This document shows positions 6,905 through 10,865 of a stretch of DNA of 64,000 nucleotides, one piece after another. This DNA comes from Halobacterium jilantaiense (GTDB lineage: Archaea; Halobacteriota; Halobacteria; Halobacteriales; Halobacteriaceae), in NCBI RefSeq assembly GCF_900110535.1, contig NZ_FOJA01000001.1, forward strand, positions 620,001 through 684,000. Direction: 5' to 3'. The position numbers were made by a program, and so were the translations under genes. How positions within the stretch are numbered: the first letter of the stretch is position 1; each line of letters starts with the position of its first letter. Below the pieces are notes generated by a model. That model saw nothing but the letters and a program-made list of their open reading frames with translations. It was not told where the DNA came from and did no database searches.

Positions 6905-7642
6905 GTGACCGGGTTCCTCGCCGCCGCGTACCGTGACGGCACCCTCCGACGGACGGCGGTTGCCGCCGTCGTCCTCGCCGTTGTGTTCCGTTTCGCGTTC
7001 GGAGAGTCCTGGCCGATGACTGTCGCGGTGGTCGTCGCCGCGTCGGGGACGACGCTTGCCACCGACTACGCCGACCACCGCGGGACACCCACTGCCGTCC
7101 GCCACCTCGCCTTCGGTGCGGCGTTCGTCGCCGTCGGCGGCTGGTGGTGGGCTCTCGCGGGCGTCGGCTCCGCTCCACCGCCGCTGGCTGTCGTCGCGTT
7201 CGTCGCGGGGCCGTGGTTCCTCCTCGACGGCTGGACGGCGCGTCGCGCCGGCCATCCCGACGCGAGTGAGTCGCCGGGAGACGACACAGCCGACGAGCTA
7301 GCAGGCCTCGCCGACGGCGGGTTCGCGTCCGAGTTGCGGGCGTTCCGGAGTCTCGGCGAAGTCGGGCGAGCGATAGACGACGGAGCGACCACGCCGGAAG
7401 CGATTGCTGCCGAGCTCGACCGGCCCGTGGCGTCCGTCGAGGACGACCTCGACGCGCTGGAGACAGCGGGCGTCGTCGATGCAGTCGGCGACGAACCCAC
7501 TGACCCAGACAATGCTCACAAGCGACGCTACCGGCGCAGCGACGGCGAGTGGTCGGCGACCGATTCTGTGGTGTCGTGGCCACGGCGCGCGCTCTCGCGT
7601 CTGCTGCGACCACTCCGTCTGCTGACCGCGGGCGGCAGCTAA
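6905..7642 (+). CDS. membrane protein with C-terminal helix-turn-helix-like domain
   Basis: A 245-residue protein. The N-terminal half has about four hydrophobic segments (TAVAAVVLAVVFRFAF; MTVAVVVAASG; HLAFGAAFVAVGGWWWAL; LAVVAFVAGPWFLL). The C-terminal part (about 140-205) reads as a winged-helix-like module: FRSLGEVGRAIDDGATTPEAI followed by DRPVASVEDDLDALETAGVV. A basic tail follows. Such membrane-anchored HTH proteins may sense the membrane, but no target is known. The GTG start at 6905 is 26-31 bp after the TATA-like CTTTAG (6874-6879). The stop overlaps the converging trm56 gene by 4 bp. Confidence 0.72.
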   Translation: MTGFLAAAYRDGTLRRTAVAAVVLAVVFRFAFGESWPMTVAVVVAASGTTLATDYADHRGTPTAVRHLAFGAAFVAVGGWWWALAGVGSAPPPLAVVAFVAGPWFLLDGWTARRAGHPDASESPGDDTADELAGLADGGFASELRAFRSLGEVGRAIDDGATTPEAIAAELDRPVASVEDDLDALETAGVVDAVGDEPTDPDNAHKRRYRRSDGEWSATDSVVSWPRRALSRLLRPLRLLTAGGS

Positions 7643-8217
7643 TCGCCGCCGTCGGTGGCCCCACTATCAGCGGCGTCCTCGTCCCCGACGTCGACGACGT
7701 GCTTCCCGAGTTCCTCGGGGACGACGCGCCGCTCGGCGTTCTCGTAGTCCTGTTCGAGTTCGCGGCCGTCGAACAGTCGGTCGAGGAACACCGCGAGCCC
7801 CGCGACCTCGCTGTGGGGCTGGTTTGTCACGCCGACGTTCCAGTCGGCGGCCTCGTACACGTCCCCGGGCACCTTCTCGCCGCCGACGACGACCAGCAGG
7901 GGCTCGTTCCGGTGAGCGTCACGCACGTCGCCTTCCACGTCCTGGACGCGCTCGCCGTACATCGTGAGGTGGACGACGACGCCGCCCCAGTTCTCGACGG
8001 TCGCGTTCAGTTCCCCGGTGAGTTCCACGTCGAACGGGCCGCCGAACCGGCCGGTGATGTCCCGGACGGTCTCCGCGGACTGGGTGGCGTTGTCCGGGAA
8101 CAGCACTCGGTCGGCTCCGAGCGCGCGCGCAGTGAGCCCGACGTGGGTCGTCATACGGTCGTCGCGACCCGGCCGGTGGCCGTACCGCAGCACCGCGACT
8201 TCGGGTTCGCCTTTCAT
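7639..8217 (-). CDS. trm56: tRNA (cytidine(56)-2'-O)-methyltransferase
   Basis: A 192-residue SPOUT-class enzyme of the archaeal Trm56 family, which methylates the ribose of C56 in the tRNA T-loop. Diagnostic stretches are VLRYGHRPGRDDRMTTHVGL near the N terminus, DRVLFPDN, then VVGGEKVPGDVYEAADWNVG and VTNQPHSEVAGLAVFLDRL, the knotted SAM-binding region. The frame continues far upstream (to 9495), but that extension is antisense to the repeat protein. The ATG at 8217 gives the family's normal start. It converges with the membrane HTH gene, with a CTAA serving both stops. Confidence 0.92.
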   Translation of the reverse strand: MKGEPEVAVLRYGHRPGRDDRMTTHVGLTARALGADRVLFPDNATQSAETVRDITGRFGGPFDVELTGELNATVENWGGVVVHLTMYGERVQDVEGDVRDAHRNEPLLVVVGGEKVPGDVYEAADWNVGVTNQPHSEVAGLAVFLDRLFDGRELEQDYENAERRVVPEELGKHVVDVGDEDAADSGATDGGD

Positions 8218-8383
8218 GGCTTCGAGGTGTCGGTCTGTCGGGGTACGCGTTTCGGATGCCGTCCACCCCATCGGAATCACTATCCCACTCGGGATGGTAT
8301 CTGGCAACAACATTGTCGCCGAGTACGTCACATCGCCGCTTGCAACGGGTCTCGCACGAGACAGGTGCGGGAGTGGTGGTATC

Positions 8384-9196
8384 GTGAATCCGAGTCGCGT
8401 CGACAGCCTGACCGACCTCGCGTACGGGGTGTTGCTGTTCGCGGCCGTCGGCCTGATTCTGCAGGTCGGCACCCAGACGGGGCTGGCGTTCGGGTTCGGG
8501 GTGCTGATCGCGTACGTCCTCCACATCGCGTGGAAGATGGCGCGCTTCGACCCCGAGTGGATGACCCGGGCCGTCGACGAGACGGTCAGTGAGACTGTCG
8601 AGGAGACCGTCAACGAGACTGTCGGGGAGACGGTCGAGCAGACAGTCGACGAGACAGTCACCGAAACTGTCGAACAGACCGTGGACGAGACTGTCGGGGA
8701 GACGGTCGAGCAGACGGTGAGCGAGACCGTCGAGGAAACCGTCGGTGAGACGGTCGAACAGACAGTCGACGAGACAGTGAGCGAGACCGTCGAGGAATCG
8801 GTTAAGGAGTCTGTGGACGAGACGGTGAGCGAGACCGTCGAAGAGACAGTCGACGAGACGGTCGGCGAGACCGTGGAGCAGACTGTGGACGAGACAGTGA
8901 GCGAGACCGTCGAGGAGTCCGTCAAGGAGTCTGTCGAGGAGTCCATGAAGGAGTCCGTCGAAGAATCGGTCAAGGAATCTGTCGAGGAGTCCATGAAGGA
9001 GTCCGTCGAAGAATCGGTCAAGGAATCTGTCGAGAAGCAGGTCGAGGAGTCCGTCGAGAAGCAGGTCGAGGAGACCGTGAGCGAGACCGTCGAGAAGCAA
9101 GTCGAGGAGACTGTCGACGAACGCCTCGCTGAAGCGGAGCACAGCGACGACGAAGACGACGAGGACGACGACGCCAGCAGCGAGGTGGCGTCGTGA
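8384..9196 (+). CDS. two-TM protein with a 45-unit tetrapeptide repeat tail
   Basis: A 270-residue protein starting at GTG 8384. Two hydrophobic segments form a hairpin (about 12-30 and 33-50). They are followed by 45 uninterrupted four-residue units (residues 65-244) of the form x-E-T-V: D/S/E/N/G/T/K at position 1, E/Q at 2, T/S/Q at 3, and always V or M at 4. The first two thirds are DETV, SETV, GETV and EQTV units. The last third has EESV, KESV, ESMK-phase and EKQV units. The tail ends in an Asp/Glu run (residues 251-265). A strict four-residue period is not a heptad coiled coil. It probably makes a long, highly charged helix with one hydrophobic stripe. The function is unknown. It lies 33 bp upstream of the PiT permease. 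Confidence 0.82.
   Translation: MNPSRVDSLTDLAYGVLLFAAVGLILQVGTQTGLAFGFGVLIAYVLHIAWKMARFDPEWMTRAVDETVSETVEETVNETVGETVEQTVDETVTETVEQTVDETVGETVEQTVSETVEETVGETVEQTVDETVSETVEESVKESVDETVSETVEETVDETVGETVEQTVDETVSETVEESVKESVEESMKESVEESVKESVEESMKESVEESVKESVEKQVEESVEKQVEETVSETVEKQVEETVDERLAEAEHSDDEDDEDDDASSEVAS
8576..9115 (+). repeat. 12-bp-period coding repeat array (45 units)
   Basis: A degenerate 12-bp period, each unit coding one x-E-T-V-like tetrad, runs 540 bp without a frame break or missing unit. Synonymous codons vary widely (GTC/GTG, GAG/GAA, ACC/ACT/ACG/ACA), so most units are old. It is a coding repeat, not a CRISPR: there are no spacers. Confidence 0.9.
8933..9028 (+). repeat. perfect 48-bp tandem duplication within the repeat array
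   Basis: Bases 8933-8980 and 8981-9028 are identical, each coding the same four-tetrad block (through EESMKESV and EESVKES). Identity extends to every synonymous codon, unlike the rest of the array, so this is the most recent expansion and shows that the array length still changes. Confidence 0.93.
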
Positions 9197-9229
9197 CCGG
9201 ACCCGTCACCCGGGCACGGAGGCCCCAGC

Positions 9230-10408
9230 ATGGTTAGCGTCCTCCTCGTCGCTGGACTCGTGGTCGCGGTGTTCGTCGGCTTCAACGTCGGCGGGTCGAC
9301 GACGGGGCCCGCGTTCGGCCCCGCGGTCGGCGCGGACGCGCTGTCGAAGCCCGCCGCAGCCGGCCTGATGACGGTGTTCTTCTTCATCGGGGCGTGGACG
9401 CTCGGCCGGCGAGTCGTCGACACGCTCGGGTCGGACCTCGTCAGCCAGCCCGGCATCTTCACGCTGGAGGCGAGCATCGGCGTGCTGTTCTTCATCGGGC
9501 TGGCGCTGTTCGTCGGGAACTACGCGGGTGTGCCGGCCTCCACGTCGATGACGGCCGTCGGCGCAATCGCGGGCCTCGGGCTCGCCCGGGACGCCCTCAA
9601 CGTCGCCGTGATGGGCGAAATCGCCATCTGGTGGGTGGTCGCGCCGGTCATCGGGTTCTGGGTGTCGCTCATCATCGGCCGGTACTTCTACGCTCGCCTG
9701 CACCGCCGGGTCGCGATGGAGCGCAGCGACCCGCCGCTGCTGGAGGTCGACCGCTCCGGCGCGATTCCGGTTCCTCGGGCGGAGGAGACGACGAACCGCC
9801 GAGAGCTGTACGGCGTCATCACGGTCATCAGCATCGGCTGCCTGATGGCGTTCTCCTCGGGCACGTCGAACATCGCGAACGCCATCGCGCCGCTGGTCGG
9901 CAGCGGCGTCATCGAGATGAACCCCGCCATCCTCATCGGCTGCGCGGCGGTCGGGCTCGGCGCGTTCACCATCGCCCGCCGCACGCTGGAGACGATGGGC
10001 AGCGACATCACGGAACTCCCGCTCACGGCGGCCATCGTGGTGGCGTCGGTGAGCGCGACGCTGGTCATCTTCCTGTCGGCAATCGGCATCCCGGCGAGCT
10101 TCGTCGTCATCGCGACGGTGAGCATCGTCGGCCTCGGCTGGGGGCGGGCGACCCGGCCCGTCAGCGTACAGGGCGTGATGCAGGGCGACTCGGACGTACA
10201 GGTGTCGGTCGGCGGGCTGGCCGCCGACGACGCGGACGAGGAAGTGCCCGCCATCGGCGAGGAGGACGCCGCCGACATCCCGAGTGCGGGCGACCTCTTC
10301 GACCCCGGGACGACGGTCCGAGTCATCGCGATGCAGAACCTCGTTCCGCTGGTCGGCACGGTCGGCGCGTACCTCGCGTTCCGCTTCCTCCCCATCTGGG
10401 GATTCTGA
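9230..10408 (+). CDS. PiT-family inorganic phosphate/anion permease
   Basis: A 392-residue integral membrane protein with two inverted repeats of the PiT family. The first is FNVGGSTTGPAFGPAVGA near the N terminus. The second is SGTSNIANAIAPLVGSG in the middle, close to the canonical GxNDxANA motif. About ten TM segments are split by a charged loop (YARLHRRVAMERSDPP and following), with a second acidic loop near 320-355 (DDADEEVPAIGEEDAADI). It probably takes up phosphate, driven by H+ or Na+. The first repeat lacks the Asp of the classic motif, as far as I recall a trait of haloarchaeal members, so anion specificity is open. It is the second gene after the repeat protein and is followed by a UspA gene. 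Confidence 0.87.
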   Translation: MVSVLLVAGLVVAVFVGFNVGGSTTGPAFGPAVGADALSKPAAAGLMTVFFFIGAWTLGRRVVDTLGSDLVSQPGIFTLEASIGVLFFIGLALFVGNYAGVPASTSMTAVGAIAGLGLARDALNVAVMGEIAIWWVVAPVIGFWVSLIIGRYFYARLHRRVAMERSDPPLLEVDRSGAIPVPRAEETTNRRELYGVITVISIGCLMAFSSGTSNIANAIAPLVGSGVIEMNPAILIGCAAVGLGAFTIARRTLETMGSDITELPLTAAIVVASVSATLVIFLSAIGIPASFVVIATVSIVGLGWGRATRPVSVQGVMQGDSDVQVSVGGLAADDADEEVPAIGEEDAADIPSAGDLFDPGTTVRVIAMQNLVPLVGTVGAYLAFRFLPIWGF

Positions 10409-10445: not shown

Positions 10446-10865
10446 ATGGTTCGACGCGTCCTGGTGCCGGTCGACGGTTCGGAGCTCGCGACCCGCGCGC
10501 TAGAGTACGCGCTCGACGTCCACGGCGACGACGACATCACGCTCCTGTACGTCGCCGGGGAGGCGTCCCCGATGATGGGGTCCGCGGCGAAACTCGCACT
10601 CGAAGACGACCTCGACGAGGCCATCCTCGAGGAAGCCGAGGAAGTGTTCGGTCCCGCCCGCGAACTCGCCGACGAGTGCGGCGTCAGCGCGGACGCCGAA
10701 ATCGGCCTCGGGAAGCCGGCGAGCGTCATCGTCGAGCACGCCGAGAACCACGACGTGGTCGTGCTCGGCAGCCACAGCAGCAGTCTCCGCGAGCGGCTGC
10801 TCGTGGGGAACGTCGCGACGAAGGTCGTGGAGAACGCGCCCGTGCCGGTGACAGTCGTCCGGTAG
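10446..10865 (+). CDS. universal stress protein (UspA family)
   Basis: A 139-residue single Usp domain. It has an N-terminal MVRRVLVPVDGSELA strand-loop and a C-terminal nucleotide-loop variant GSHSSSLRERLLVGNVATKV, ending VPVTVVR. The loop resembles the ATP-binding G-x2-G-x9-G-S/T pattern only partly. The ATG at 10446 lies 23-31 bp after a TATA-like AGTTTATCC (10415-10423), so it has its own promoter, though it sits directly behind the permease. A role in stress or membrane transport tuning is inferred only from context. Confidence 0.88.
   Translation: MVRRVLVPVDGSELATRALEYALDVHGDDDITLLYVAGEASPMMGSAAKLALEDDLDEAILEEAEEVFGPARELADECGVSADAEIGLGKPASVIVEHAENHDVVVLGSHSSSLRERLLVGNVATKVVENAPVPVTVVR

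Follow-up and report, generated by a model that had tools for sequence, protein, structure and literature searches.

Phosphate transport by PiT-superfamily proteins depends on essential signature aspartates, and in Bacillus subtilis CysP these positions are occupied by G and N instead (PMC5840216). The E. coli member PitA is thought to be modulated by a small membrane protein, MgtS, and UspA genes occur in transporter operons, with no tested role given (PMC10710835). Long repeat-built rods have been described among the right-handed coiled coils, such as the hendecad (11/3), the pentadecad (15/4) and the YadA stalk (19/5); the accessible period of coiled coils is about 3.3-3.9 residues per turn, the expected limit being about 3.9 and the furthest known value 3.8 (PMC4786415).

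The window analyzed here, a 64,000-nucleotide stretch of the Halobacterium jilantaiense genome, encodes a PiT-superfamily permease immediately downstream of a membrane-anchored repeat protein. The features are as follows.

8384..9196, + strand: gene for a two-TM tetrapeptide-repeat protein (270 aa, GTG start)
8390..8545, + strand: two-TM hairpin anchor (residues 3-28 and 30-54 predicted helical by AlphaFold2, pLDDT about 68-81)
8522..8566, + strand: juxtamembrane motif HIAWKMARFDPEWMT, residues 47-61 (columns nearly invariant in alignments)
8576..9115, + strand: 45 unbroken tetrapeptide units x-E-T/S-V, residues 65-244 (sequence; tandem DNA periods)
9116..9193, + strand: acidic C-terminal tip, residues 245-270 (sequence; model pLDDT 45-60 in the last blocks)
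9230..10408, + strand: PiT-superfamily permease, CysP-like, cassette partner, 34 nt downstream (PF01384 (PHO4), 147.6 bits)
9284..9319, + strand: N-half permease signature NVGGSTTGPAFG, with T at the Asp position (alignment with TmPiT, 6l85)
9854..9892, + strand: C-half permease signature SSGTSNIANAIAP, with N at the Asp position (alignment with TmPiT, 6l85)
10446..10865, + strand: universal stress protein (Usp), minority partner (PF00582, 99.5 bits)

The GTG start of the repeat gene is backed by a conserved N-terminus (MNPxRVD) in the homologue alignment. Of the 45 units, none of which is missing, 43 have V at position 4 and the other 2 have M, and all 44 spacings between successive V/M residues equal 4; the longest run in 2000 shuffled controls of the same composition never exceeded 8 units. 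An earlier reading made from the sequence only had described these uninterrupted tetrads, and they stand, as does the change of the units from DETV/SETV towards EESV/KESV and EKQV before a poly-acidic end. Its statement that E or Q lies two residues before each V or M applies to 42 of the 45 units (E 37, Q 5) and fails in the three EKQV units, which have K. The 210-residue tail as a whole carries 78 D+E versus 11 K+R. A scan of this genome for further period-4 proteins, using one DNA pattern, matched this gene alone. The minus strand also has a 618-aa ORF (window positions 7639-9495) that runs antisense to the repeat and is continuous with the frame of Trm56; high G+C and the in-frame repeat probably account for the part opposite the repeat.

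To determine how widespread the protein is, we searched a 64-residue profile of the anchor against 392 genomes of the order and a separate sample of the phylum. The anchor (motif HIxWKMARFDPxWMT) was detected in 248 of the 392 genomes, representing 70 of 95 genera, with Halobacterium and other haloarchaea among them, and in no genome of the phylum sample outside the order. The two-TM anchor is thus not peculiar to this genome: its mean column identity is 83% (64 columns, 16 homologues), and the core H-I/V-x-W-K-M-x-R-F-D-P-x-W-M recurs across homologue alignments. Between about 5 and 82 tetrads follow it, as counted in 80 loci studied in detail and in those from the same taxonomic family. Conservation of the anchor is far above that of the repeat number, which suggests that the anchor makes a specific contact. 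Strict periodicity, whose absence from homologues would have counted against the sequence-only reading, is kept in the homologues, where 2467 of 2622 hydrophobic spacings (94%; 79 sequences) are exactly 4 and the summed spectral peak lies at 4.00. In Halohasta (L065 and L073), two adjacent same-strand ORFs belong to this family's cluster and seem to represent a tandem duplication of the gene. Neither Pfam nor NCBIfam scans returned a model for the anchor, a single pattern-based scan of viral contigs found no relative, and no haloarchaeal tetrapeptide-repeat family is described in the open-licence literature searched. Overall, haloarchaea widely carry an undescribed membrane-anchored protein with a tail period of exactly four, in agreement with the original impression that no known family has this layout.

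Several apparent matches to known proteins were rejected. The window protein passes the Pfam cut-off for CdrL_M (PF24252; 38.6 versus 27 bits) over an xETV-like stretch of about 29 residues. CdrL combines an N-terminal RHH with a C-terminal zinc-ribbon domain (PMC7439475), whereas residues 1-62 here form the two-TM anchor, the Pfam scan found neither an RHH nor a zinc-ribbon family in the protein, and the match is driven by the repeat only; when this genome was searched with the family, CdrL_M matched only once, at a different locus. DUF445 (PF04286) likewise shares a long periodic stretch, but the proteins align to it by the repeat tail only: the window protein falls short of the cut-off (24.3 versus 33.8 bits), and an 82-unit homologue (L005, 41.1 bits, over its repeats) is the only one to pass among the homologues scanned. 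Among PDB matches, TLP-4 (9ikm; E 0.0033) also has a four-residue repeat, but its chain is (TASX)n, with S/T composition driving the weak match and no V or E pattern; it was set aside, along with designed repeat proteins, as similar in composition only.

The gene neighborhood offers a clue to function. A PiT-superfamily gene adjoins the repeat gene in 56 of the 80 loci (40 in tandem, with the PiT gene directly downstream, and 16 in divergent orientation), so that the synteny first noticed in the window extends across haloarchaea. In many tandem pairs, the two genes touch or share a few nucleotides. Of 125 genomes compared, 70 have both the anchor and the close PiT subfamily (defined by E at most 1e-140), 44 have neither, 3 have only the permease and 8 only the anchor (Fisher p ~7e-22, without correction for phylogeny). 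The two vary concordantly inside five genera (g12, g23, g26, g35 and g36), and locus arrangement tracks the clades of the anchor tree, which was built from few columns (8 changes versus 34 when shuffled). Halobacterium genome G009 carries a different PiT gene (50% identical) next to the repeat gene, and Trm56 and SDR remain the flanking genes. An apparent lack of the repeat gene in some Halobacterium was dismissed for at least one genome (G015), where a contig break falls inside the repeat; in another (G007), the PiT gene lies near the contig start. An adjacent PiT gene is absent in 24 of the 80 loci, mostly in particular clades (one Natrinema paralogue, Halorubrum) and in a few cases at contig ends. 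No natural fusion of the two proteins was noticed among the loci read. The link to the permease is nonetheless strong and, given that the repeat gene travels with an anion-permease gene, its product is probably an accessory part of the transporter.

A second, paralogous family points the same way. Its anchor is distantly related to the first (hhalign E 1.3e-5), its tails have a period of 3.92-4.01 with a different sequence, and at six loci (L160, L161, L162, L168, L169 and L170) it lies directly beside PiT genes whose products are ~37-61% identical to the window permease. In some tails of this family (e.g. L165, L166), the repeat valine is followed by proline. One member (locus L166, G000:C1:2627299-2627574, minus strand) lies in the window's own genome, with no PiT gene nearby among the matches listed.

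The neighbor had been called a phosphate permease, which is now doubtful. An Asp in both GANDVANA signatures marks a PiT phosphate symporter, and both are replaced here: among permease matches in the loci, the N-half position is T in 60 and S in 13, and the C-half position is N in 76 of 76. In this respect the protein resembles B. subtilis CysP, a PiT-superfamily member that has also lost both aspartates (PMC5840216). CysP is also its best NCBIfam match, but the model (NF053884) gives 167 bits against a cut-off of 400, and the T or S at the N-half position is G in CysP. The sole solved relative by sequence is TmPiT (6l85), at E 0.01. The loss of both aspartates makes sulfate or another anion a more likely substrate than phosphate, as judged from these residues. 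Four further PiT-superfamily matches in the genome (G000:C1:719133, 756735, 1833383 and 2717717) likewise have a signature without the canonical GAND Asp, as read from open frames at the loci.

The universal stress protein, which the sequence-only reading took as part of the synteny, is present in the window and has Usp counterparts near the repeat gene in about 16 of 80 loci, a minority pattern. As the genome holds 27 Usp matches in total, we regard Usp as a possible but minor third partner.

We put at roughly 50% the probability that the repeat protein is a membrane-anchored, self-associating accessory rod subunit of the CysP-like PiT-superfamily anion permease. Tandem and divergent linkage, co-occurrence, the replaced permease in G009, the second family and anchor conservation argue for this. 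A precedent by description rather than by sequence comes from MgtS, a small membrane protein whose proposed target is a PiT-family transporter, although the protein described here differs in having a two-TM anchor, a long repeat and a gene beside that of the permease. The hairpin and the WKMARFDPxWMT motif would be embedded in the membrane or lie on its surface and would touch the permease. The C-terminal side of TM2 contains K/R, consistent with a cytoplasmic tail, which would form a long acidic rod of mostly helical structure. Such rods might associate with one another through the valine stripe and thereby cluster or regulate permeases, the anchor providing the specific contact and the rod setting reach or clustering. 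Against an accessory role are the 24 loci without an adjacent PiT gene and the 8 genomes with the anchor but no close PiT.

These exceptions bear on the earlier suggestion of a membrane scaffold or spacer, in which anchored rods set distances or organize the membrane and the permease is a mere operon neighbor. Paralogues without PiT exist and the length is free to vary from ~5 to 82 units, as such a role would allow. On the other hand, both the within-genus concordance with one PiT subfamily and the second PiT-linked family exceed what chance neighborhood would give. The suggestion is still plausible, but we consider it unlikely, and an accessory subunit is the more specific proposal and the better fit to the linkage.

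Some observations count against self-association of the tail. AlphaFold2, run with 35 sequences, predicts the TM hairpin (3-28, 30-54) followed by helices at 57-145 and 155-253, at a low mean pLDDT of 65.1 (56.6 for a short-tail homologue), and a PDB sequence search with the repeat found no solved relative. As in right-handed coiled coils, the hydrophobic spacing exceeds 3.63 per turn and, if helical, the stripe would drift right-handed; unlike them, the window tail takes only 4-residue steps, with no 3-residue step over 180 residues. The family peak of 4.00 lies outside the described range of ~3.3-3.9 (PMC4786415), which counts against association through the stripe. By simple geometry, a period-4.0 stripe would tilt the helices by ~32 degrees in a dimer and more in larger bundles, compared with 10-22 degrees at radii of 4.9-7.3 A in the heptad, pentadecad and 19/5 cases. 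At position 1 of successive units, cap-like (G/S/D/T/N) and helix-like residues show a mild tendency to alternate, which produces a weak super-period of eight residues. Overall, 48% of position-1 residues are cap-like, which does not favor a continuous helix. Together, the period and the tilt imply a new geometry, something other than a conventional coiled coil, or no stable helix. The right-handed superhelix put forward earlier is therefore not established, given low-confidence helices and the tilt a dimer would need. A stable helical rod that self-associates and has a true 4.0-residue period, either a tight right-handed superhelix or a regularly under-wound helix, is in our view doubtful and at most a tentative proposal for the tail.

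The same low model confidence and cap-like residues, together with the strong negative charge and variable length of the tail, could instead reflect a polyelectrolyte brush. In that case, an unstructured or transiently helical acidic tail would concentrate cations or exclude anions where the permease opens to the cytoplasm, and the period would reflect composition and repeat turnover rather than fold. A brush needs neither V/M as every fourth residue across as many as 82 units despite silent-site divergence nor a second family that keeps the period with a different sequence, and we judge this improbable.

At the DNA level, the repeat has tandem periods of 24, 36, 48 and 72 nt (TRF), all multiples of 12, which indicates growth by in-frame tandem duplication. 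Valine is encoded by GTC (33), GTG (9) and GTT (1), threonine by all four codons, and position-4 differences between unit pairs are 339 synonymous versus 86 non-synonymous. Varied silent codons under a constant V argue for selection on the protein rather than just recent DNA expansion. Thus, neutral slippage of a low-complexity 12-nt unit behind a conserved anchor, although in keeping with the TRF periods and with differing repeat numbers in near relatives, is already disfavored and very improbable, because V is conserved despite synonymous diversity, the homologues read keep an open frame, and the period is shared by many genera and a divergent second family.

The finding points to an undescribed accessory component of haloarchaeal PiT-superfamily permeases, and it raises the possibility that certain "phosphate" permeases of haloarchaea transport a different anion. 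If the period-4.0 rod is real, it would be a new structural class, a cytoplasmic rod of a permease complex across haloarchaea, with either a superhelix far tighter than in any described coiled coil or a regularly under-wound helix. The stated coiled-coil limit can be tested directly on natural, easily made sequences, graded from ~5 to 82 units.
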